Shown here piece by piece: positions 4,428-44,203 of a stretch of DNA of 44,203 nt; within the stretch, counting starts at the first letter, position 1; every line of letters begins with the position of its first letter. The stretch is from Candidatus Planktophila sp. (GTDB lineage: Bacteria; Actinomycetota; Actinomycetes; Nanopelagicales; Nanopelagicaceae). The notes beneath the pieces are model-generated. The model ran no database searches. It was not told where the DNA came from and saw only the letters and a program-made list of their open reading frames with translations. The stretch covers positions 1 to 44,203 of the forward strand of contig JABMMN010000002.1 of assembly GCA_013205535.1 (NCBI GenBank). Direction: 5' to 3'. The translations under genes and the position numbers were made by a program.

Positions 4428-5231
4428 ATGTCTATCCGTCACTACTCACCACGTAGAAATCGCCGTAGAGCGATCTCTCGAAGGATGAGCGGGATACTGA
4501 TTGCCGTCCTCGCAGTTGCAATCTCTCTTCAGATAATCTATCCATTAATCGATGGTGAGACTTTACGCTTGGTCACTATTGCAGTGGTCTATTGGGGTGC
4601 TGGTGCGATGCTCCTACATGCTCTGCTTGCTTACGGGCAGCGCTATGCCTTTACTTATTTAGGTATCACATTCTCTTTCGCATTAGCTATCGAGCACATT
4701 GGTGTGAAAACGACCTGGCCCTTTGGTGAGTACACATACTCTCCCGATCTAGGCCTTCAAATATTCTCTGTCCCCCTGGTAGTTCCCTTTGCCTGGATAA
4801 TGATCGCTCATCCAGCTTTGGTCATCTCTCGGCGCGTTGCGGGCCACTGGGTCTTTCTCTATGGCGGAATTGTGATGGCGGCATGGGATTTATTTCTTGA
4901 TCCATTGATGGTCTCCTCAGGTCGTTGGACTTGGGTGGTAAGTGGTCCCCATGTTCCATTCCAACCTGAAATTCCACTCTCAAATACCTTCGGCTGGCTG
5001 CTATCTGGCATGGTCTTGATCGCAATCCTGCACTTTGCACTCACTCGAGAGAGAAGAAAAATCGGTGCATCCTTTGTGGCCGTTGATATCTTTTTGGCCT
5101 GGACTTTATTTTCAGGAGTTGTAGGTAATCTCTTCTTTTTCAGCCGTCCTGGTATCGCACTCTTTGCAGGAGCAATCTTTGCCGCGGTCCTAGCCCCATA
5201 TCTTTTCACTCGCTGGTTAGGGCGCCCATAA
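4428..5231 (+). CDS. cruF: CruF-like carotenoid 1,2-hydratase (DUF422 family membrane protein)
   Basis: Polytopic membrane protein of the carotenoid-biosynthesis DUF422 family, which includes CruF and the bacterioruberin-pathway hydratase CruF of haloarchaea; these add water across the terminal 1,2 double bond of acyclic carotenoid ends. The 267 residues have an arginine-rich start (residues 1-20) and then about seven hydrophobic segments. Family hallmarks are the EHIGVKTTWPFGEYTYSPDL region, VPLVVPFAWIM, and WDLFLDPLMVSSGRWTW. It lies 27 bp after the CrtA-like gene and 5 bp before the glycosyltransferase, so it is probably in the same transcript. ATG 4428 was chosen; ATG 4485, just before the first membrane helix, is an alternative. 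Confidence 0.85.
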   Translation: MSIRHYSPRRNRRRAISRRMSGILIAVLAVAISLQIIYPLIDGETLRLVTIAVVYWGAGAMLLHALLAYGQRYAFTYLGITFSFALAIEHIGVKTTWPFGEYTYSPDLGLQIFSVPLVVPFAWIMIAHPALVISRRVAGHWVFLYGGIVMAAWDLFLDPLMVSSGRWTWVVSGPHVPFQPEIPLSNTFGWLLSGMVLIAILHFALTRERRKIGASFVAVDIFLAWTLFSGVVGNLFFFSRPGIALFAGAIFAAVLAPYLFTRWLGRP

Positions 5232-5236
5232 ATCCT

Positions 5237-6307
5237 ATGCTTTGGTTTACTGCATTCCCCATATTTTTGCTTCTAATATCAATCACTAACTTTTTTAGTA
5301 TCAGAAGGCCCGATAAAGATAGTGAGATAACTGAGACAGTTAGCGTGATTATTACCCTACGCAATGAGGCCGAGAACGTTGTAGATCTTGTCCAATCACT
5401 TCTTGCCCAAAAATCCTTGAACAGCGTGGAGTTCATTTTTTTAGATGATGATTCGCAGGATCAAACTCTTGAACTGCTGAGATCCTCTACCGCTAGCTCG
5501 GCTCATGCTCGAGTGATACAAGGTGCTGCGTTACCACCTGGTTGGATCGGCAAGGTTTGGGCTCTACATCAGCTCATGAAGTGCACAACTGGCGAGATCA
5601 TCGTCTCAATTGATGCCGATGTTCGGATAGCCCCTGATGCGATTAGCAGGTCAATTACTCTCATGAAATCAGCCTCCCTGCAGTTTATCTCCCCTTATCC
5701 CCGACAGGTAGCCCTCTCTCTTGGCGAGCGTCTTGTGCAACCTCTCTTGCAGTGGTCTTGGATGACAACTCTTCCTCTTCGCTTTGCAGAGCGGGCAGCA
5801 TTTTCATCGATGGCAGTTGCAAATGGCCAGTTTTTTATTGTGCACAGAGCCGCACTCGTTGCATCTGGTGGATATGAATCGGTCAAAGCTGCCGTATTAG
5901 ATGACGTGTTCCTAGCTCGAGCACTCACACAGACTGGCTCGCATGGCACAGTGATAAACGGTGCCAATATCGCGCAGTGCAGAATGTATTCATCGTGGAG
6001 TCAGATTCAATCTGGTTACGGTAAATCCCTGCGTCATGCATTCGGATCTCCCTTTGGCTCAATTTTTGCGATAGCTTTTCTCTTAATGACAGGGGTATTG
6101 CCACTTGTCTTTGCCCTTTTGGGTTCGCCCTGGGGGGTCATAGCATTTACTGTCATCATGTGTACCCGCATCATCAGTGCCTTACGTTTTCATGGCCGGA
6201 TTCTTGATTCACTCTTTCATCCAATCTCAAGTATCGTGCTGATCTATCTCATCATCTACTCCTATCTCAAGCGTGGAGAGATAACTTGGAAGGGCCGGGC
6301 ACTATGA
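5237..6307 (+). CDS. cruG: CruG-like carotenoid glycosyltransferase (GT2, membrane-anchored)
   Basis: Family 2 glycosyltransferase of 356 aa with an N-terminal hydrophobic anchor (residues 1-20) and hydrophobic segments in the last 90 residues. GT-A signatures are SVIITLRNEAENV, the nucleotide-sugar loop FLDDDSQDQT, the DxD motif IDADVRI, the acceptor/base region LDDVFLARAL, and QIQSGYGKSLRH in place of the QxxRW box. This arrangement matches the CruG/HpnB-like group; cyanobacterial CruG glycosylates the 2'-hydroxyl of myxol. Placement between cruF-like and crtD-like genes strongly suggests a carotenoid acceptor. Its stop overlaps the next start as ATGA. The sugar donor cannot be read. Confidence 0.83.
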   Translation: MLWFTAFPIFLLLISITNFFSIRRPDKDSEITETVSVIITLRNEAENVVDLVQSLLAQKSLNSVEFIFLDDDSQDQTLELLRSSTASSAHARVIQGAALPPGWIGKVWALHQLMKCTTGEIIVSIDADVRIAPDAISRSITLMKSASLQFISPYPRQVALSLGERLVQPLLQWSWMTTLPLRFAERAAFSSMAVANGQFFIVHRAALVASGGYESVKAAVLDDVFLARALTQTGSHGTVINGANIAQCRMYSSWSQIQSGYGKSLRHAFGSPFGSIFAIAFLLMTGVLPLVFALLGSPWGVIAFTVIMCTRIISALRFHGRILDSLFHPISSIVLIYLIIYSYLKRGEITWKGRAL

Positions 6308-7800
6308 AGATCGTTGTTATTGGTGCTGGGATGGGTGGCATGACGGCGGCAGGGCGATTAGCACGCGCCGGGCACTCAGTGAGCGTTTATGAAGCCTGCG
6401 ATACTTTTGGTGGAAAACTACGCACTGAGTGGATTGGAAAGTTTGCCTTCGATACTGGGCCCTCACTCTTGACCCTGCCAGCGGTCTACAAAGATTTCTT
6501 CATCCGAACCGGTAAACCACTTGGTCTTATGTGTGAAATCGTGCCCGTCGACCCATCCTTTGACTATCGGTTCACTGATGGCACACATGTGAGCTTTTCA
6601 AACCTTTCGCGCTTTCACACCCTCAATGCGATCCGAGCTGAGTATGGAGATGAAGCCGCCCAGCAGTGGGATCAGATGATGCGTCGGGCCTCAAAGATGT
6701 GGGACGTCTCGCGCGAACCATTTGTCGAATCAGAGCTGCGCTCCCCACTTACTCTGTTCAAGCGTAGGAATTTGATTCGTGACATATTCATAATCTCGCC
6801 TTGGACATCACTGCGCAAATTTGCTGACAAATATCTACCTGACAGACGTCTTCGATATATTCTCGATCGCTATGCAACATATAGTGGCTCCGATCCTCGC
6901 AAAGCCCCCGCTGTCCTGGCAACTATCGCCTATGTGGAAGAGGCTTTTGGCGCTTGGCATATAAAGGGCGGTCTTGGAACCCTTGCAACATTGGTGCATC
7001 AGCGCTGTATCGATGTTGGGGTTACATTTCACTTCAATTCTCGAGTCGCACAAATCACGGTAGAAAAGGGAGTGGCCTCTGGTGTTCGATTGCAGGATGG
7101 AACAGTTATCTCCACTGATGCAGTCATAGCAAATGCCGATGCAGCTCTGATTTACAATCAATTGATTGAAGGAGAGGATCGAAAGCTTCGCAAAGTGCGC
7201 CGCAACCTAATGAAAGCCGATGCTTCACTCGCCGGTTTCACACTTTTGCTGGGTCTGAGAAAAGATGGGAGTAATCCCCTTAAACACCATACGGTTTTAT
7301 TTCCCAAGGATTATGACGCTGAATTTGATTCGATATTTACCGCTAAGACCCCGGCCCTAGAGCCAACGATCTACATCTGTGCCCCCCAGGATGAGCAGAT
7401 GGTCAAAGACTCCTCTCTTGAGAGTTGGTCTGTGCTGGTCAATGCTCCACATCATGGAGATGGTGGATTTGATTGGAGTGATGAGAACTTCTCTCGCAAC
7501 TACGCCAATCTCATTATCGATCAGATCGAGGCAAGGGGTATCCCGGTGCGCGCCCGATTGGAGTCACTGACAATTAGAACACCCGCAGATTTAGAGCGCA
7601 GCGTTTTAGCACCTGGAGGTTCAATCTATGGCACATCTAGTAACGGTGCTCGGGCCGCTTTTATGCGAGCAAAAAATCGTTCACCAATAAAGAACCTTTA
7701 CTGTGTGGGAGGCTCCTCCCATCCTGGTGGAGGTTTACCCCTTGTTGGCTTAAGCGGGGAGATTGTTGCTAACGCAGTTGAGAGCGGGCAAAGCGCATGA
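6304..7800 (+). CDS. crtD: CrtD/CrtI-type carotenoid desaturase
   Basis: FAD-dependent carotenoid desaturase of the CrtI/CrtD family, about 498 aa. The N-terminal dinucleotide-binding fold is clear: VVIGAGMGGMTAAGRLARAG, then VYEA and the substrate-side FDTGPSLLTLP. The family C-terminal signature is GGSSHPGGGLPLVGLSGE. It is a paralogue of the crtI gene at 10333. Because it sits with CruF-like and CruG-like genes, I call it CrtD-like, a 3,4-desaturase acting on 1-hydroxylated carotenoids; this rests on context rather than a diagnostic residue. The frame extends to 6286, but ATG 6304 is preferred because it overlaps the cruG stop as ATGA. Its 3' end overlaps the opposite-strand phosphatidyltransferase by 32 bp. 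Confidence 0.83.
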   Translation: MKIVVIGAGMGGMTAAGRLARAGHSVSVYEACDTFGGKLRTEWIGKFAFDTGPSLLTLPAVYKDFFIRTGKPLGLMCEIVPVDPSFDYRFTDGTHVSFSNLSRFHTLNAIRAEYGDEAAQQWDQMMRRASKMWDVSREPFVESELRSPLTLFKRRNLIRDIFIISPWTSLRKFADKYLPDRRLRYILDRYATYSGSDPRKAPAVLATIAYVEEAFGAWHIKGGLGTLATLVHQRCIDVGVTFHFNSRVAQITVEKGVASGVRLQDGTVISTDAVIANADAALIYNQLIEGEDRKLRKVRRNLMKADASLAGFTLLLGLRKDGSNPLKHHTVLFPKDYDAEFDSIFTAKTPALEPTIYICAPQDEQMVKDSSLESWSVLVNAPHHGDGGFDWSDENFSRNYANLIIDQIEARGIPVRARLESLTIRTPADLERSVLAPGGSIYGTSSNGARAAFMRAKNRSPIKNLYCVGGSSHPGGGLPLVGLSGEIVANAVESGQSA

Positions 7801-8389
7801 CCTGCGTGAAACTGACTACTTGCAGTGCTAAAAACCCATAGGCAAGAATCTCAATACCCGGAATTGAAAATTGATACATGAGTAGAGTGATAAAGAGGAA
7901 GCTCGCACGCACTGGTCGCTCGGTTGCAGTAACAACTCCGATCTCATGAACTCCTAGTGAGGTTAACTTTGCTCGTGCATACTCTTGAATGGCGGCAACG
8001 CTCCATAATGCGATTGCAAGCCATGCTGGAATACCGATGACATAGAGAGCGTATAACCAGAAGGCCTCACTGATTCGATCAACAACTGAGTCCAGGGTCG
8101 CACCCCATGCACTCTCTCGCTTTTGAAAGATTGCAACGCTGCCATCGACTCCATCACAAAAAAGTGAGAATACAAGAAAGAAAATCGCCCACCATGAGGT
8201 GGCGTTCAAAGCCGTCAGCACTGCGCTGGCAAGTCCAAGAAGAGTCAGCGAATTAGGAGAGATTCGGAGCAACGTTGCGATTAAACCAAAGCGATAAGAG
8301 ATCTTCAGCCAAGCCGCCACAATTCCTTTAACTGGTGCATCATTATGCAAGGAACTCCATCTAGCAGTAAATTCCTCTTTAGTGAGCAT
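7769..8389 (-). CDS. CDP-alcohol phosphatidyltransferase family protein
   Basis: Integral membrane enzyme of the CDP-alcohol phosphotransferase family, which makes phospholipids or phosphopolyols from a CDP-activated alcohol. The 206 residues have about six hydrophobic segments. The signature is visible as DGVDGSVAIFQKRESAWG followed by ATLDSVVD, giving the expected Asp ladder (DG...G-x3-D-x3-D). The arginine of the usual DGxxAR is isoleucine (DGSVAI). The alcohol substrate is unknown. It starts inside the end of metF (11-bp overlap), so the two are probably cotranscribed, and it ends inside the convergent crtD-like gene. Confidence 0.8.
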   Translation of the reverse strand: MLTKEEFTARWSSLHNDAPVKGIVAAWLKISYRFGLIATLLRISPNSLTLLGLASAVLTALNATSWWAIFFLVFSLFCDGVDGSVAIFQKRESAWGATLDSVVDRISEAFWLYALYVIGIPAWLAIALWSVAAIQEYARAKLTSLGVHEIGVVTATERPVRASFLFITLLMYQFSIPGIEILAYGFLALQVVSFTQVMRFARSQLR

Positions 8390-9233
8390 TATTTAAATTC
8401 CTATAAATTGCGGTAGTAGCAGTTGCACTATTCATAGTATAGAAGTGCAGACTCGGTGCGCCAGCGTGCAACAGATCTTCACACAACTGGCTTGCGAGTT
8501 CGATACCTAGATTTTGGACAGCATCCACATCACCCTCTATTGCCGTGAAGGCCGCTGAAATTGCGGGGGGGATCGGTGTGCCTCCAAGTTCAGCCATACG
8601 TTGTAACTGTTTGACGTTGGTAATCGGCAGGATTCCTGGAATTACGGGTAATTCGGAGCCACGAGCTTGCAATGCATATACAAGTTGCTCCCATTTTGAA
8701 ACTTCGAAGAAAAACTGTGTGGTTGCAAAAGTTGCACCTAGCCGTTCTTTGCGAAGTAAAACGTCAATATCTTTTTTTGTATCACCCGCTGATGAAGGAT
8801 GACCATCCGGGAAAGCAGCAACACCAATATCAAAACCTCCAAACTCACGAATTAGTTGTACGAGTTGGTCAGCGTGAGTAAAACCATCGGATACAGGTGT
8901 CCAGGGAGCGCGGGGTCCGCCTACTGGGTCCCCTCGCAGCGCTAAAACACCGCGAATTCCAGCGTCACGATAAAGATGCAGAATTGAGATCAATTCTGGG
9001 CGGCTTGAACCAACACATGTCAAATGTGCCACCGTTGGAACCTTAGTCCGATGCGTAACCTCTTGAGTGACGCCAATTGTTCTATTTCGTGTTGACCCAC
9101 CTGCGCCATAGGTCACAGATACAAACTTTGGTGCCATAGGCGCGAGTGCCTCAAGGGCCTCCCACAATCGAATCTCACCCTCACTGTCTTTAGGAGGGAA
9201 AAATTCTAATGAATACGAAGTGCGCGTTATCAC
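8379..9233 (-). CDS. metF: Methylenetetrahydrofolate reductase
   Basis: 5,10-methylenetetrahydrofolate reductase, which forms 5-methyl-THF for methionine synthesis. The 284 residues give a full-length single-domain MetF: SLEFFPPKD at the N-terminus, FVSVTYGAGGSTRNRT, the FAD-site ALRGDPVGG, GVAAFPDGHPSS, ATFATTQFFF and PGILPITN near the C-terminal third. The start is GTG at 9233, 6 nt after a TACCCT hexamer on the minus strand, so the transcript is probably leaderless. It is divergent from crtE with only 22 bp between them, and followed by the overlapping phosphatidyltransferase gene. Confidence 0.93.
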   Translation of the reverse strand: MITRTSYSLEFFPPKDSEGEIRLWEALEALAPMAPKFVSVTYGAGGSTRNRTIGVTQEVTHRTKVPTVAHLTCVGSSRPELISILHLYRDAGIRGVLALRGDPVGGPRAPWTPVSDGFTHADQLVQLIREFGGFDIGVAAFPDGHPSSAGDTKKDIDVLLRKERLGATFATTQFFFEVSKWEQLVYALQARGSELPVIPGILPITNVKQLQRMAELGGTPIPPAISAAFTAIEGDVDAVQNLGIELASQLCEDLLHAGAPSLHFYTMNSATATTAIYRNLNNAH

Positions 9234-9239
9234 ACTCTG

Positions 9240-9245
9240 AGGGTA
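9240..9245 (-). promoter_or_regulatory. -10 element for metF (leaderless), overlapping the crtE -10
   Basis: TACCCT on the minus strand, six bases before the GTG of metF. It shares the TA dinucleotide at 9244-9245 with the crtE -10 on the other strand. Confidence 0.55.
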
Positions 9246-9249
9246 CCTT
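9244..9249 (+). promoter_or_regulatory. -10 element for crtE (leaderless)
   Basis: TACCTT followed by six bases (TAAGGA) and the GTG of crtE. The AAGGAG just before GTG overlaps the start codon, so it is too close to act as a ribosome site. Confidence 0.55.
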
Positions 9250-9255
9250 TAAGGA

Positions 9256-10332
9256 GTGAGTTTAGAGGCCAAGGCAGCTTTGCAAGAGTTTCGTGATGCC
9301 GTTGAGATCGAATTATCGAAGTTTGTCGCCGAGCAATCCACTTTTCTAAACTCAATTTCAAGTGATCTGGCTCCAGTTGCACATGCCCTCTCAACTTTCC
9401 TGCTTGATAGTGGCAAACGCCTACGGCCTCTCTTTGCATACAGTGGATTTGTAAGTACAGATGCCGAATTAGACGTCTCAGTCACGCGGGCGATTGCAAG
9501 TCTTGAACTATTGCAGGCTTGTGCGCTCATCCATGATGATCTTATGGATGGCTCAGATACGCGTCGGGGTAGGCCCTCAATTCATCGTCACTTCGAATCC
9601 ATCCATGTCCAAGAGCAACTTGAGGGTTTTGCACCTGCATATGGTCTTGCCGCCGCTGTGTTACTGGGCGATTTAGCTTTGGTCTGGTCGAATCAGATGC
9701 TCAACGAGGCCAGACTCACATCTGAACGGTTGAGCAATGTATCCCCGATTTATGACGAGATGCGCACTGAGTTAATGGCCGGGCAATTTTTAGATATTCA
9801 TGAGCAGGCCCGCAAGAGTACTGACCTGGAGCGCTCTGTAAAAATCGCACGATATAAATCTGGAAAATATACGGTCGAGAGACCGTTGCACATAGGTGCA
9901 GTCCTGTCGCAAAGCCATTCCCCTGCTCTCCTAGATGCACTCTCTTCATATGGTCTGCCCCTTGGAGAGGCATTCCAATATCGAGATGATCTTTTAGGAG
10001 TCTTCGGGGATCCATCGGTCACGGGCAAGCCAGTGGGTGATGACCTTCGCGAAGGCAAAAGGACGGTGCTCATTGCCCTCACAGATGCTGCATGTACTGA
10101 GTCGATGCGAAGTGAGAGCAAAAAGTTCTTTGGAATGCCAGAGTTGGATGCAGGTGGCATATCTATTTTGCAGGAGATAATCACGGTAACTGGAGCAAAG
10201 CAAAAGCTTGAGGCAATGATTGAGAGGCTCACGCAAGAGGCATTGCAGGCTGCAGAGTCTGAGGTAATTGGAGAGCGGGCGCATCCCCTGCTTTTGGAGT
10301 TAGTAAAAATCACAACTAAGAGGAGCACCTAG
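9256..10332 (+). CDS. crtE: Polyprenyl diphosphate synthase (geranylgeranyl diphosphate synthase type)
   Basis: Class I trans-prenyltransferase of 358 aa that builds C20 (possibly longer) isoprenyl diphosphate. It has both Asp-rich motifs: HDDLMDGSDTRRG for the allylic substrate and YRDDLLGVFGDPSVTGKP for IPP, as well as the GKRLRP region near residue 55. Being directly followed by crtI and crtB, it is best read as the GGPP synthase feeding phytoene synthesis. The start is GTG 9256, supported by a TACCTT hexamer at leaderless spacing. It is divergent from metF. The last codons carry AGGAG, which serves as the ribosome site for crtI. Confidence 0.9.
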   Translation: MSLEAKAALQEFRDAVEIELSKFVAEQSTFLNSISSDLAPVAHALSTFLLDSGKRLRPLFAYSGFVSTDAELDVSVTRAIASLELLQACALIHDDLMDGSDTRRGRPSIHRHFESIHVQEQLEGFAPAYGLAAAVLLGDLALVWSNQMLNEARLTSERLSNVSPIYDEMRTELMAGQFLDIHEQARKSTDLERSVKIARYKSGKYTVERPLHIGAVLSQSHSPALLDALSSYGLPLGEAFQYRDDLLGVFGDPSVTGKPVGDDLREGKRTVLIALTDAACTESMRSESKKFFGMPELDAGGISILQEIITVTGAKQKLEAMIERLTQEALQAAESEVIGERAHPLLLELVKITTKRST

Positions 10333-11817
10333 ATGGCTGCACGTGTCAAAGGCCCGACCGATCATGTCGTTGTTGTAGGGGCGGGTCTTGCTGGACTCAG
10401 TGCTGCGCTTCGTTTAGCTGGTGCCGGTCGTAAAGTCACCGTTATCGAGCGAGAGTCGGTTCCTGGTGGAAGAAATGGTCTGCTCCAAAAACAGGGATAC
10501 TCATTCGATACGGGCCCATCTGTATTGACTATGCCCTCATTGATTCAAGATGCCTTCAACTGTGTGGGTGAGGATATGAAGGACTGGCTTGAACTCACCC
10601 CATTGACTCCTTTGTACCGGGCCTTTTATGCCGATGGAACCTCCTTGGATGTCCATGCAAATACACAGGAGATGGAGGCAGAGATTGAAAAAAACATCAG
10701 TGCCACCGAGGCCGCTGGCTACCGTCGCTATGTAGAGTTTGTGACCAAGTTATATAAGTATGAGATGAATGATTTTATCGATCGTAATATCGATAGCCCC
10801 TTTAATTTATTGACACCAAATCTGGCACGACTCATTGCGCTAGGTGGTTTTCGTAAACTCTCACCGAAGGTCAACCAATTTCTTAAAGACCCACGTCTTC
10901 AAAAGGTTTACTCCTTTCAGGCGATGTATGCAGGCGTGAGTCCCCAGCAGGCGCTGGCGATCTATGCGGTCATCGCATATATGGACTCTGTTAACGGTGT
11001 ATTTTTTCCAAAGGGAGGGATGCATGCGATCCCACGTGGACTCGCAGCGGCTGCCCAAAAACACGGTGTTGAGTTCAAATACAATACGACTGTCTCCAAG
11101 GTTGAGATCTCTCATGGCCGGGCCAAAGCGGTCTTAACCCAGGATGGCCAGCGCATTGAGTGTGATGCCGTCATCCTCAATCCTGATCTTCCAGTGGCCT
11201 GGCGAGAGTTATTAGGTAAGACACCACTATCTGTTAAGAGGCTGAAATACTCGCCCTCATGTACCACCTTGCTCGTTGGCTCCTCAAAGAAATACTCCCA
11301 CACCGCCCATCACAACATTCATTTCGGGCAATCGTGGGACGGGGTATTTGATGAGCTTATTAAGAAGAAGGTTTTGATGAGTGATCCCAGTATCTTGGTC
11401 ACAGTTCCGACACATGATGATCCAGATTTGGCACCACCTAACAAAAATATTTATTACATCCTCTTTCCCACTCCAAACCTGAGCGCCGATATTGACTGGG
11501 TCAAGCAGGCAGGGCCATATCGAGATGAGATGGTGCGGGCTCTTGAGAGCCGGGGCTATGAGGGTTTCGGGGATTCAATAGAGACCGAGACTCTAACGAC
11601 CCCCTTAGATTGGAAAAATCAGGGGATGGAACAGGGTGCACCATTTGCAAGCGCGCACACATTCTTTCAAACTGGACCATTTAGGCCACGCAACATCGCC
11701 GCAGGGATTGAAAACGTTGTCTTTGCCGGCTCAGGGACACAGCCTGGTGTTGGTATGCCCATGGTGTTGATCTCAGGACGACTTGCAGCAGAGCGAATTG
11801 TGGGACCAGTCAAGTAG
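10333..11817 (+). CDS. crtI: Phytoene desaturase
   Basis: CrtI-type phytoene desaturase, 494 aa, an FAD flavoprotein that introduces the conjugated double bonds leading from phytoene to neurosporene or lycopene. Key features are the nucleotide-binding VVVGAGLAGLSAALRLAGAG, the ERESVPGGRNG loop, FDTGPSVLTMP, and the C-terminal FAGSGTQPGVGMPMVLISGR. ATG 10333 has AGGAG at 10321-10325, seven bases upstream, inside the end of crtE. It lies between crtE and crtB with no gaps, so the three form one operon. The number of desaturation steps cannot be predicted. Confidence 0.93.
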   Translation: MAARVKGPTDHVVVVGAGLAGLSAALRLAGAGRKVTVIERESVPGGRNGLLQKQGYSFDTGPSVLTMPSLIQDAFNCVGEDMKDWLELTPLTPLYRAFYADGTSLDVHANTQEMEAEIEKNISATEAAGYRRYVEFVTKLYKYEMNDFIDRNIDSPFNLLTPNLARLIALGGFRKLSPKVNQFLKDPRLQKVYSFQAMYAGVSPQQALAIYAVIAYMDSVNGVFFPKGGMHAIPRGLAAAAQKHGVEFKYNTTVSKVEISHGRAKAVLTQDGQRIECDAVILNPDLPVAWRELLGKTPLSVKRLKYSPSCTTLLVGSSKKYSHTAHHNIHFGQSWDGVFDELIKKKVLMSDPSILVTVPTHDDPDLAPPNKNIYYILFPTPNLSADIDWVKQAGPYRDEMVRALESRGYEGFGDSIETETLTTPLDWKNQGMEQGAPFASAHTFFQTGPFRPRNIAAGIENVVFAGSGTQPGVGMPMVLISGRLAAERIVGPVK

Positions 11818-12690
11818 ATGGATGAGCTTGCAGAATCCTACGCGGAGTGCAAGAGATTAAATGCTCTGCATGGTAAAACGTATTACTTAGCGACTTTGCT
11901 ACTCCCCAAATCCAAACGCCCCTATGTCCATGCGCTCTATGGCTTTGCTCGATATGCCGATGAGATTGTCGATGATATGGCCTCTACGCTCACAGTTGAG
12001 GAGAAGGCACAAGCCCTAGGTGTATGGGGAGAGAAAATCCTAAGCGATTTAAAGAGTGGAGAGAGTGATGATGCGATAGGTCGTGCCTTGATCGATACTG
12101 TGAATCGCTTTGATATTCCGCATGCACACTTTGAAGCCTTTCTTCACTCAATGACTATGGACCTGACGGTGCAGGAGTACCAGACATATGAGGATTTGAT
12201 GGAGTATGTCTATGGCTCTGCCGCAGTGATTGGCCTTGAGATGGTCCCAGTCTTAGGCGCACTCGATGATGGTGCTTATGAGTGCGCAAAAAACCTAGGT
12301 ATCGCCTTTCAATTGGCGAATTTCATTCGAGATGTCGGTGAGGATCTAGATCGTGGCCGTATCTATCTTCCGATTACAGAGTTGGCTCAATATGGTGTCA
12401 CACGCCAGATGCTCGAAGAGAGAGTACTGACCCCTCAAATTGTTGAGGCCCTCAAGTTTCAGATCGCCCGCGTGCGCACCCTTCAGGCCCAGGCCGCTCC
12501 TGGAATTTTAATGTTGGAGGCAAAAAGTCGGCCATGTATCGAAGCGGCGAGCACGCTCTACTGTGGAATCGTCGATGAGGTAGAAAAGATTGGTTATGAC
12601 ATCTTCAATAAACGCGCCACAACATCTTCACCGCGCAGAGCACGGGTTGCAGGTGCAGCTCTCCTCAAGCGTTTAGTTTCATCTCGCTGA
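11818..12690 (+). CDS. crtB: Phytoene synthase
   Basis: Squalene/phytoene synthase family enzyme, 290 aa, joining two GGPP molecules to phytoene, the first committed carotenoid step. Both Asp-rich motifs are present: the first as ARYADEIVDDM, the second as NFIRDVGEDLDRGRIYLP. The context YFATLLL-like YYLATLLLPKSKRPYVHALY at the N-terminus is also typical. ATG 11818 directly follows the crtI stop. It is the last gene of the crtE-crtI-crtB operon; the TPP riboswitch follows. Confidence 0.94.
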   Translation: MDELAESYAECKRLNALHGKTYYLATLLLPKSKRPYVHALYGFARYADEIVDDMASTLTVEEKAQALGVWGEKILSDLKSGESDDAIGRALIDTVNRFDIPHAHFEAFLHSMTMDLTVQEYQTYEDLMEYVYGSAAVIGLEMVPVLGALDDGAYECAKNLGIAFQLANFIRDVGEDLDRGRIYLPITELAQYGVTRQMLEERVLTPQIVEALKFQIARVRTLQAQAAPGILMLEAKSRPCIEAASTLYCGIVDEVEKIGYDIFNKRATTSSPRRARVAGAALLKRLVSSR

Positions 12691-12735
12691 GGCTTAGAAA
12701 GTGCCAGCCACTGCAGATTGGAGGGTTTTGCCATA

Positions 12736-12826
12736 GGGTGAAGGTACGGGAGCCCTTAAAGGCTGAGAGGGTCTGAATTTCAGATCGACCGTTAGACCGA
12801 TCCGGTAATGCGGATGCGGAAAGGAA
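12736..12826 (+). promoter_or_regulatory. TPP riboswitch (THI element)
   Basis: Thiamine pyrophosphate-binding leader. Conserved blocks appear in order: ACGGGAGCCC (12746-12755), GGCTGAGAGGG (12761-12771), then GACCGATCCGGTAATGCGGA (12796-12815) and GCGGAAAGGA. These match the THI-box core (GGGxGCCC, GGCTGAGA, CTGATCxGGxTAATGCxxGCGxAGGGA). The AAGGA at 12821-12825, seven bases before the ATG of the next gene, falls at the 3' edge, so TPP probably blocks ribosome binding. Outer boundaries are approximate. Confidence 0.88.
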
Positions 12827-12832
12827 AATATC

Positions 12833-13408
12833 ATGTCAACAACTCTCTTTACTGCCTGGGGCTATGACGTATCAATCCTTGAATCAGTTGCAGCACTCGT
12901 CTCCATCATAGGTGTCTGGCTGGGAACAACTGGTAGACGAATCACATGGCCATGGTGGGCTGCAAGTAGCGCACTCTATATGGTCTTTTTTTACCAGGCC
13001 GATCTCTTTGCAAGTGCTGCTTTGCAGATTGTCTTCATTGTGGCAGCAGTGTGGGGCTGGTTTGGTTGGGCACCAACTGGAGCGGAGCCTGGTGCCTTAT
13101 CAAATCGTAATAGGGTCATTTGGGCGATGGCAACGATCGTCTCAGTCTCAATTCTCACACCAATTCTCTCGAACCTTGGCGCGGCGGCAACATGGTCTGA
13201 TGCATTCCTTCTCGTTGCAAGTTTGATTGCACAGATTCTTATGGTCTACGAGAAGATAGAGACTTGGATCCTATGGATCATCGTTGATGTAGTTGGAACT
13301 ATTCAATATGCAGTGCTGGGCTATTGGTTCACAGCCGTTTTGTATTTTGCCTTCACGCTTGTTGCTTTTGTTGGCTGGAAGCGTTGGAATGTCTCTTATA
13401 GCCATTGA
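12833..13408 (+). CDS. pnuT: PnuC-family transporter, probably PnuT (thiamine uptake)
   Basis: Small membrane transporter of the PnuC family, 191 aa with about seven hydrophobic segments. Family features include RRITWPWWAASSALYMVFFY, the tryptophan-rich AAVWGWFGWAP, and a C-terminal pair AQILMVYEKIETWILWIIVDV. PnuC proteins carry nicotinamide riboside, while the PnuT subgroup carries thiamine. The TPP riboswitch directly upstream makes thiamine the likely substrate. PnuC-type carriers rely on intracellular phosphorylation to trap their substrate, so the kinase gene overlapping its 3' end by 20 bp is of interest. ATG 12833 has AAGGA seven bases upstream. Confidence 0.88.
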   Translation: MSTTLFTAWGYDVSILESVAALVSIIGVWLGTTGRRITWPWWAASSALYMVFFYQADLFASAALQIVFIVAAVWGWFGWAPTGAEPGALSNRNRVIWAMATIVSVSILTPILSNLGAAATWSDAFLLVASLIAQILMVYEKIETWILWIIVDVVGTIQYAVLGYWFTAVLYFAFTLVAFVGWKRWNVSYSH

Positions 13409-13886
13409 CGGTCGCGCCGGTGCTGGCAAAACCACCTTAGCAAGAGAACTCTATGAGAGGCTCTCTCAAGACAAGTCTGTGAGCGTTATTCATATGGATG
13501 ATTTGTACAATGGTTGGCACAACGCACTCAATATTGATCTAACCTCAAAGTTAGAGACTATAATTGATGCATTCGTGACACGAGTAGAGATCTTGATTCC
13601 TATTTTCAATTGGACAACTATGTCCTTTGATTCATCTCAACTGCTTGTTCCAAGTGACGTCCTGATTATTGAGGGTGTCGGTGCCGGTCAAAAAGTAGTG
13701 CGTGATGCTGGAGCGATCCTGCATTGGCTCGATATCGAGTCCGAAGAGGGCTTGGCCCGCGTTTTAGCACGAGATGGCATGGCGATAGAGATCCATATGC
13801 GCCAATGGCAGGTAGATCAGGAGGAGCATTTTCAACGTGATGCAACGCGCAAACATGCACATCACCTTCTTACTTCACAACCTTAA
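13389..13886 (+). CDS. P-loop kinase of the uridine-kinase-like fold, substrate unknown
   Basis: Small P-loop NTPase of about 165 aa. The Walker A motif GRAGAGKTTLA lies near the N-terminus, followed by VIHMDDLYNGW, which resembles the acceptor-binding Asp loop of uridine kinases, and LIIEGVGAGQ as the Walker B strand. The C-terminal VDQEEHFQRDATRKHAH is shared with actinobacterial proteins annotated loosely as uridine kinase. ATG 13389 is chosen because it lies inside the end of the pnuT-like gene and starts directly with the Walker A strand. Coupling to a TPP-controlled transporter raises the possibility of thiamine or thiamine-precursor phosphorylation; this is inference only. Confidence 0.72.
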   Translation: MSLIAIDGRAGAGKTTLARELYERLSQDKSVSVIHMDDLYNGWHNALNIDLTSKLETIIDAFVTRVEILIPIFNWTTMSFDSSQLLVPSDVLIIEGVGAGQKVVRDAGAILHWLDIESEEGLARVLARDGMAIEIHMRQWQVDQEEHFQRDATRKHAHHLLTSQP

Positions 13887-13935: not shown

Positions 13936-15831
13936 ATGTCGGACCTATCGGGTGAGCTCATTGATAGCCGCTACCAGCTGATTCAACAGGTCGCTAATGG
14001 TGGGATGGCCTCGATCTATGAGGCGATTGATACTCGTCTAGACCGTAAAGTCGCAGTCAAAATCATGCATCCGCATCTGGCCCAAGATGAGGCCTTCGTT
14101 AATCGCTTCATACGTGAGGCAAAGGCCGCTGCCGCTCTCAATCACCCCAACATTGTCGCGGTGCAGGATCAAGGCTGGAATCAAAGTGGCATACCCGCAG
14201 TCTTTTTAGTGATGGAGTTTATCGAGGGGAGCACTCTGCGTGAGTATCTCAATGAGCGGGGACGATTCGAATTTAATGATGCAGTCAACTATCTGACCCC
14301 GATTTTAAGCGCTCTTGCAGCGGCTCATGCAATTGGGATTGTTCATCGAGATATTAAGCCTGAGAATATTTTGATTTCAAAGGAGGGACGGATTAAGCTC
14401 GCGGATTTTGGTCTGGCTCGTGGAGAGATTATTGGATCTACGATGACGGCAGAGTCAAGTGTAATCCTTGGCTCAGTTTCATATCTATCCCCCGAGCAAG
14501 TACAACGGGGCGTTTGCGATGCACGAAGTGATGTTTATGCCCTAGCCATAGTCGCATTCGAGATGCTGACTGGTGAAAAGCCATTTCTCGGTGAGACCCC
14601 CATCCAAATCGCCTATATGCATGTCAATGAAGATATTCCATCACTTCGCTCCAAACGCAAAGATCTACCTCAAGCACTCGATGAGTTGATAAGTCGGGCA
14701 GCGAATAGGGACCCTGATTTACGCCCACGCAATGCGGGTGAGTTTCTTGCACAACTGCTAAGGATTGCGGCAGAGATAGATCCGAAGAAGAATCAGATGA
14801 GATTGGATCTAGATCTACCAGTTGATCCGATTCGAGAGAAACCGCGCTCTAAACCAAAGCGAGAGATTCTTACTCAAGCCATCACGGAGTTAAAAGAGAG
14901 TACACAAGAGGTTCGTCGAAGCGCCGATAAAAAGCAGCGAGCCAGTAGGCGTGTGCGACGCAACCGTAAAGTTGCTCTTCTCCTTGCCATCACCCTAGGC
15001 ATCGGTGGCTGGTACACACTAGTGGGACCTGGATCTCGGATAGTTGTTCCATCAACAATCGGAGGCTCATACGATCAAGCGCTCTCACTTCTGACACCTT
15101 TGGGAATAACCAACGTGATTACTGAAAAACGATTTGATGAAGAGGTTTCAGCAGGCACCATTATCGAATCAGATCCGCAGGCTGGTGGACGAATAGATTC
15201 TGGTGGATCGGTGACATTAATCGTTTCAAAAGGAGCTGAGCGTTTTACCATTGCATCTCTAGTCGGCTTGACACCAGAGGCAGCGAGCGCTTTAATCACA
15301 AAGAGCCCTTTGATTCTCGGAACGACTAAGGAGATATTTAGTAACAAGATACCAAAAGGCTTTGTCATCTCCTCAGATCCACAAGCAGGTGCCCAAGTAA
15401 AACGAGGCTCTGCAGTCAATCTCATACTGAGCAAAGGTGTTGAGTTAGTCTCTCTTGCATCGTATGTAGGTAAAAGTGGGGAGCAGGGCCTCAATGAGCT
15501 CACAGAGGCGGGATTTGAGGTCGAAAGTTCATATGCATTTGATGAGAAAATCCTCGCCGGTGCAGTCGTTTCACAGATTCCTAGCGGAAATATTGAGGTC
15601 CCAAAGAGTTCAAAGGTCAGACTGATTGTCTCAAAAGGCTCTCAATACGTATACATTCCGAATGTCCTCTCACTTGAAGAGAGTAAGGCGGTTGCCGCTC
15701 TCAAAGACCTTGATCTAAAGGTCATCGTCAAGAAATTGGGAGTCAAAAAAATTAAAAAGACCACAAATATCTCCCCCAAGGTCGGTAGTAAAGTCAAACG
15801 TGGCAGTGTGGTCACGATTACCGTAGGGTGA
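13936..15831 (+). CDS. pknB: PASTA-domain serine/threonine protein kinase (PknB type)
   Basis: Transmembrane eukaryotic-like Ser/Thr kinase of 631 aa. The cytoplasmic kinase domain (about 12-275) has GxGxxA-type loop NGGMASIYEA, catalytic Lys K42 in VAVKI, HRDIKPEN with D139, and DFG at 157-159, followed by a Ser/Thr-rich activation loop and SYLSPEQ. A basic juxtamembrane region (300-345) leads to one membrane helix (345-363). The exterior is four PASTA repeats (about 368-433, 436-502, 503-567 and 571-631), which in this family sense peptidoglycan fragments and regulate cell-wall growth and division. It is complete and appears active. Transcription is probably leaderless. Confidence 0.93.
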   Translation: MSDLSGELIDSRYQLIQQVANGGMASIYEAIDTRLDRKVAVKIMHPHLAQDEAFVNRFIREAKAAAALNHPNIVAVQDQGWNQSGIPAVFLVMEFIEGSTLREYLNERGRFEFNDAVNYLTPILSALAAAHAIGIVHRDIKPENILISKEGRIKLADFGLARGEIIGSTMTAESSVILGSVSYLSPEQVQRGVCDARSDVYALAIVAFEMLTGEKPFLGETPIQIAYMHVNEDIPSLRSKRKDLPQALDELISRAANRDPDLRPRNAGEFLAQLLRIAAEIDPKKNQMRLDLDLPVDPIREKPRSKPKREILTQAITELKESTQEVRRSADKKQRASRRVRRNRKVALLLAITLGIGGWYTLVGPGSRIVVPSTIGGSYDQALSLLTPLGITNVITEKRFDEEVSAGTIIESDPQAGGRIDSGGSVTLIVSKGAERFTIASLVGLTPEAASALITKSPLILGTTKEIFSNKIPKGFVISSDPQAGAQVKRGSAVNLILSKGVELVSLASYVGKSGEQGLNELTEAGFEVESSYAFDEKILAGAVVSQIPSGNIEVPKSSKVRLIVSKGSQYVYIPNVLSLEESKAVAALKDLDLKVIVKKLGVKKIKKTTNISPKVGSKVKRGSVVTITVG

Positions 15832-44144: not shown

Positions 44145-44203
44145 GATCCACGCTTATCGATGGCAGTGTTGCTATCGACCTGGTCTTCACCCGGAGCACC
44201 CCA
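44145..44203 (-). promoter_or_regulatory. SAM-IV-type riboswitch, 3' part (cut by window edge)
   Basis: On the minus strand the segment reads GGGGTGCTCCGGGTGAAGAC near the window edge, then CAGGTCGATAGC, a short hairpin, and AAGCGTGGATC. This matches the 3' half of SAM-IV riboswitches of actinobacteria (GGGGTGCCCCGGGTGATGACCAGGTxGA ... GCAAGCGCGGATC). The 5' half lies beyond base 44203. Downstream, TCCCA-TAAC-TGGGA (about 44092-44105) can fold into a hairpin touching the AAGGA ribosome site and may be the expression platform. Confidence 0.72.

Follow-up and report, generated by a model that had tools for sequence, protein, structure and literature searches.

We analyzed a window of 44,203 nucleotides from Candidatus Planktophila sp. 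(the window being the whole stretch of DNA presented above), which belongs to a genome of 1.17 Mb that is 86.6% complete. On the forward strand, a divergent TPP riboswitch aptamer (12736 to 12838) is followed by pnuT, which encodes a PnuC-family transporter of 191 amino acids (12833 to 13408), and then by a gene for a P-loop kinase of 165 amino acids (13389 to 13886). The frames of the two genes overlap by exactly 20 bases (13389 to 13408, forward strand), and the motif AAAGGA at 12820 to 12825, read from the sequence on the same strand 7 nucleotides before the ATG of pnuT, is its probable Shine-Dalgarno sequence. The preliminary description had placed a riboswitch directly upstream of a PnuC-family gene and had noted a 20-bp overlap between this transporter gene and that of a small uridine-kinase-like protein; all of these statements were borne out. 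The operon occupies a conserved chromosomal slot whose left border is a phytoene-synthase-like gene (11818 to 12690, forward strand) and whose right border is a Ser/Thr protein kinase gene (13936 to 15831, forward strand), both assigned by eye and both recovered by tblastn as neighbors in relatives. Among named genomes, the nearest matches to the locus were actinobacterial MAGs and one Candidatus Nanopelagicales MAG, and the genes present are consistent with acI actinobacteria as portrayed by Kang et al. Adjoining the operon, positions 4428 to 12690 hold a carotenoid/retinal-type cluster with two desaturase-like genes, a prenyl transferase, and a phytoene synthase (by eye). At the end of the window, a truncated SAM-IV riboswitch (44145 to 44203, reverse strand, 40.8 bits) lies upstream of metY/metZ-like and metX-like genes (by eye).

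The sole Rfam match within positions 12500 to 13100 was to the TPP family (RF00059, 32.5 bits, E value = 1.5 × 10−4), and the same aptamer was the one TPP match in the whole genome. Its alignment to RF00059 was full length (model positions 1 to 105), and a default Rfam scan gave no match because the score lies below the gathering threshold of 54.3. The aptamer was found by Rfam upstream of pnuT in 20 of 20 loci of relatives and in 11 of 13 further loci, the other two (L030 and L031) being cut by contig ends; this recurrence argues against a chance match. Across 31 aligned aptamers, 43 positions were invariant, and 9 of the 22 predicted pairs were altered on both sides with pairing kept. Furthermore, a clade-specific covariance model made from these aptamers (R1) also detected aptamers preceding thiC, thiO, and thiB-type genes in related genomes, which is an independent sign of the TPP class. 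The closing P1 helix was absent from the RNAalifold consensus, which may account for the low Rfam score, and 4 of the 5 outer pairs were nonstandard in the alignment to RF00059. These comparisons confirm, at the level of sequence, that the RNA is a divergent TPP-class aptamer, with TPP as its predicted ligand. The AAAGGA motif comes immediately after the final helix of the aptamer, so that control of pnuT is likely to be translational.

Membership of the transporter in the PnuC family was clear from PF04973 (E value = 5.3 × 10−37) and from TIGR01528 (72.8 bits against a cutoff of 42.45, E value = 3.2 × 10−20). Given its position behind a TPP aptamer, in its own locus and in those of relatives, the pnuT product is likely a thiamine importer, predicted to be under putative TPP-riboswitch control. 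A second PnuC-like family occurs in relatives (L058 to L077), with approximately 20 to 29% identity to the PnuT of the window in the 18 of 20 loci that gave a tblastn match. No TPP aptamer was found at the loci of this second family, which is perhaps the riboflavin-type PnuX described by Kang et al.

The kinase gene starts with an ATG at 13389 and encodes a Walker A motif near the N terminus. A longer, TTG-started frame (13293 to 13886) is also possible by open reading frame calling; in the closest relatives, the kinase start coincides with 13389 and is mostly an ATG. Pfam assigned the protein to PF00485 (PRK/uridine kinase, E value = 1 × 10−7), and the best curated match was PRK06547 (NF005115), a hypothetical protein family without an assigned function, yet the score of 88.3 bits did not reach the 173 bits required. 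All of the 36 aligned kinases matched PRK06547 with E values below 10−5. The curated scores for udk were likewise not reached (39.8 against 220.3 bits and 41.9 against 180 bits). Neither TPK_catalytic (PF04263) nor APH (PF01636) was among the best 25 of 35 Pfam matches for the kinase, TIGR02721 (ThiK type) was not among the matches listed for it, and a PF01636 search of its own genome gave nothing at 13389 to 13886.

An AlphaFold model of the kinase had a pLDDT of 96.5. Its best structural match was uridine-cytidine kinase (1uej_B, Z score = 18.7, root mean square deviation = 2.4 over 163 residues), followed by weaker matches to phosphoribulokinase, to pantothenate kinase, and, lower, to NRK1 (Z score = 12.1); no TPK- or APH-fold chain was among the structural matches listed, which excludes neither fold. 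The likeness to uridine-cytidine kinases (1uej and 3asz) extends over 161 to 163 of the 165 residues (Z scores of 18.3 to 18.7), but the identity is only 20 to 21% and, as noted above, the udk scores are far below the cutoffs. The Walker A glycines and lysine, E95-G96, R128, and W140 were invariant in both kinase alignments, and D37 was invariant in one and conserved at more than 90% in the other. When the protein was aligned to the uridine kinase of Thermus thermophilus, D37 fell on the aspartate that acts as the general base in the uridine kinase family, and the base-contacting stretch differed. As modeled, the fold is kinase competent, with Walker A, D37, and E95 conserved, and is UCK-like and unlike that of TPK.

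We assessed how the kinase and pnuT are distributed in 37 genomes of the genus, 23 class outgroups, and 251 genomes of the order, 108 of them good; completeness varied among these samples. The kinase was found in 34 of the 37 genus genomes, in 6 of the 23 class outgroups, and order-wide, 237 of the 251 genomes carried it (105 of the 108 good ones). Within the genus, pnuT adjoined the kinase in 28 of 29 loci and in 4 of 4 more, the single exception (L031) being a contig end. In other genera of the order, pnuT stood beside the kinase in 19 of 26 loci, all 19 with the aptamer; three of the remaining seven (L164, L185, and L187) lie at contig ends, and the other four belong to genomes G065, G143, G159, and G180. 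Six of the 23 clear kinase relatives in named genomes adjoined pnuT, again all with the aptamer, and the other 17 loci stand apart from pnuT and aptamers. The aptamer thus preceded every intact pnuT-kinase pair scanned, and a possible kinase start fell between approximately 35 bases before and 11 bases after the pnuT stop in nearly all of 58 loci (a count that includes the window's own locus twice). None of the 6 class-level kinase loci was beside pnuT or a TPP aptamer. In one of these class relatives (G038), the kinase domain is continuous with a PabB-like (aminodeoxychorismate synthase) domain, assigned by eye, in a frame of 702 amino acids (L048, 2551 to 4659, reverse strand); this possible fusion may hint at another role or else be an annotation trap.

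The thiamine pathway was searched in the same genomes. ThiE gave no single match over the cutoff in the 37 genus genomes, where there were weak partial matches only (in G021, the pieces sum to 28.8 bits). TPK_catalytic had no match in the window's own genome or in the genus, nor in any of the 251 genomes of the order; a control search gave matches in 8 of 14 known genomes. The TPK matches in 12 of the 23 class genomes span just approximately 35 of the 113 profile positions, and we take these proteins to be SteA-like. ThiL exceeded the cutoff in 30 of the 37 genus genomes, including the window's own (184.8 bits as an excised frame against a cutoff of 184.15; 186.6 bits in the genome search), with partial pieces in 5 and no ThiL found in G010 and G011. 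Since ThiL is kept without ThiE, there must be another source of TMP, and since no TPK was detected either, some enzyme must turn thiamine into TMP, for which the kinase is the best candidate. ThiK-type APH proteins were patchy across the genus, and two nearly complete genomes (G002, 97%; G036, 95%) held only APH matches of approximately 30 to 60 amino acids inside longer frames, none of them full length. The one full-length APH protein of the window's own genome was considered as a ThiK and rejected (28.3 bits against the 299.45 required); its neighbor is acyl-CoA-dehydrogenase-like (by eye).

These results bear on several expectations in the preliminary description. A need for external thiamine had been proposed, and the state of the pathway in the window's own genome (ThiE absent, ThiL present) supports it. 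Co-occurrence of the kinase with pnuT in relatives had been suggested as a check and was seen in the loci counted above. Finally, a TPK elsewhere combined with frequent separation of the kinase from TPP-regulated genes had been named as the outcome that would refute the interpretation, and within the order, neither of the two was found.

We therefore favor the reading that the operon is a TPP-controlled system of thiamine uptake and trapping in a thiamine auxotroph and that its kinase is a nonorthologous candidate for the enzyme converting thiamine to TMP; we put the probability of this reading at roughly 0.7. At low TPP, the aptamer would leave the ribosome site of pnuT open, and PnuT, by analogy with PnuC and PnuT proteins a facilitator, would admit free thiamine. 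The kinase would be translated together with pnuT through the frame overlap, a likely case of translational coupling, and would use ATP to convert thiamine to TMP, trapping the imported vitamin. ThiL, encoded elsewhere, would then convert TMP to TPP, which would close the riboswitch. In E. coli, thiamine is salvaged in two steps (thiamine to TMP to TPP) by ThiK, an APH-fold kinase, and ThiL; the route proposed here is the same, but the kinase of the window lacks an APH assignment among its best Pfam matches. It would thus do the job of TPK in B. subtilis, of Tnr3 in Bacteroidetes (presumably a TPK-fold enzyme), or of ThiK in E. coli, with an unrelated fold.

The slot itself offers two natural experiments, both in agreement with this reading. 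In G065, G143, and G180, the slot has no pnuT and the kinase is kept between the same neighbors; in these three genomes, a TPP aptamer precedes the gene of a ThiB-type thiamine ABC binding protein (TIGR01254 over the cutoff). In G159, the kinase is alone in the slot. Retention of the kinase with a ThiB-type transporter indicates that it goes with the import of thiamine and not specifically with PnuT. In all four of these genomes, a search of the kinase locus gave no aptamer, so the kinase is not always TPP controlled. ThiE was found in 6 of 43 genomes of the order that were tested, namely, four of genus g31, G185 (g38), and G065. All five ThiE genomes of g31 and g38 lack the kinase, and they include the only three kinase-less genomes among the 108 good ones; G065 is an exception in having both. 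Where we read the slot in such genomes (G092 and G185), it held an aptamer with thiO-thiG and a divergent thiE on the other strand (L128, 3973 to 7259, where thiS was identified, in G092; L129, 2683 to 6037), at the place where most relatives have aptamer-pnuT-kinase. A second TPP aptamer in G092 precedes a CytX-like permease (205.3 against 309.85 bits), which suggests import of HMP rather than of thiamine. The other 9 kinase-less genomes of the order are all less than 90% complete; six of these were searched for pnuT, which was cut by a contig end in G183, G253, and G257, and no PnuC-family match was found in G190, G212, and G217. In a tree of the neighboring protein kinase (63 rows), absence of the kinase amounted to one change and absence of pnuT to at least five, a count that depends on the labels, since L030, L031, L164, L185, and L187 (contig ends before or inside pnuT) were labeled as having pnuT by default. 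Loss of the kinase together with presence of ThiE is one event on the tree and was therefore given no statistical weight.

The same loci bear on a second explanation, in which the kinase is an older neighbor acting on another substrate, a nucleoside or some other metabolite, before which pnuT and the aptamer were inserted or from which they were lost; in that case, sharing an operon would reveal little about what the kinase does. The slots that hold the kinase without pnuT are what it would predict, as are a predicted fold of the uridine-cytidine kinase type and the fact that relatives elsewhere in Actinomycetota are mostly away from pnuT and TPP aptamers. However, three of the four pnuT-less genomes (G065, G143, and G180) have the TPP-controlled gene for a thiamine ABC transporter instead, and the clade in which ThiE supplies TMP lacks the kinase. 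Moreover, a second aptamer-pnuT-kinase set, present in the Candidatus Nanopelagicales MAG (L138) at a different place on the chromosome next to a 2-oxoglutarate-dehydrogenase-like gene (assigned by eye), argues for a functional bond between the two genes. At the same site in a related genome (L137, 3926 to 4483), the kinase stands without pnuT, beside an SDR gene and a 2-oxoglutarate-dehydrogenase-like gene (a TPP enzyme, by eye). The udk scores far under the cutoffs (39.8 against 220.3 bits) also count against this explanation, and without the kinase, there is no enzyme in sight for the step from thiamine to TMP. We consider it unlikely, although it is the strongest of the alternatives.

It is less probable still that the kinase is a one-step pyrophosphokinase that makes TPP directly from thiamine, like TPK or Tnr3. 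UCK-type folds belong to monophosphoryl-transfer kinases, which counts against this activity, and ThiL, kept in most of the genus despite the loss of ThiE, would have no purpose if the kinase itself yielded TPP. The operon logic of pnuT-tnr3 in Bacteroidetes, as given in the available text of the source, speaks for it (PMC5613172). Uptake and trapping of nicotinamide riboside (NR) by a PnuC carrier and a nicotinamide riboside kinase would fit the name of the PnuC family and the presence of NRK1 among the structural matches, but we reject it as very improbable because the riboswitch is of the TPP class, not of the NAD or pnuC-motif class; in addition, thiO-thiS-thiG lies behind the aptamer in the slot of relatives, and the NRK1 structural score is far below that of UCK. 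Equally remote is HMP or another thiamine precursor as the main substrate, which a gene in a thiamine-controlled operon could have, since the genus, like 37 of the 43 order genomes tested, has no ThiE to join precursors and hence no use for HMP. Where the preliminary description had left open a thiamine or a precursor kinase, thiamine is therefore the better reading, and the precursor is improbable.

The reading of the operon as a system of thiamine uptake and trapping can be set beside two described systems. In the available text of Kang et al. 2017 (PMC5301498), a THI element with pnuC/PnuT is reported in four genomes of acI actinobacteria, which the paper ranks first in abundance among the bacteria of most freshwater lakes, and the four strains are presented as thiamine auxotrophs that lack almost all enzymes of de novo synthesis and of salvage. 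The aptamer and the transporter are the same as here, and the lineage appears to be the same, so this part of the operon was already known; the kinase that follows pnuT is unmentioned in those parts of the paper. The second system is the TPP-controlled pnuT-tnr3 operon of Bacteroidetes (BT2396-BT2397 in B. thetaiotaomicron), which, in the portions of the source available, likewise consists of a TPP riboswitch, a PnuC-family thiamine importer, and a thiamine-phosphorylating enzyme, the last of these predicted in our case (PMC5613172). The enzyme there is Tnr3, whereas here it is a P-loop kinase in an order in which no TPK domain was detected; the operon follows the same logic with a nonhomologous kinase, whose role in thiamine metabolism we infer. 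We found no earlier report of the kinase in the literature searched, which excluded subscription-only papers.

A broader generalization is possible but tentative, and we would sooner bet against it than for it: that PRK06547-like P-loop kinases are thiamine kinases with a further unrelated fold, that they serve import in Nanopelagicales and in many TPK-less actinobacteria with any transporter, and that the TPP-controlled slot of the order has switched between thiO-thiS-thiG and import plus kinase. The case for actinobacteria at large is weaker than that for the order because relatives outside the order had no nearby pnuT or TPP aptamer in the loci read. For acI actinobacteria, the operon names a candidate gene for the step that turns imported thiamine into TPP. 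If this assignment is true, genome-based vitamin predictions that seek only TPK or ThiK would get the thiamine use of many actinobacteria wrong, and a function would be gained for a family now annotated as hypothetical.
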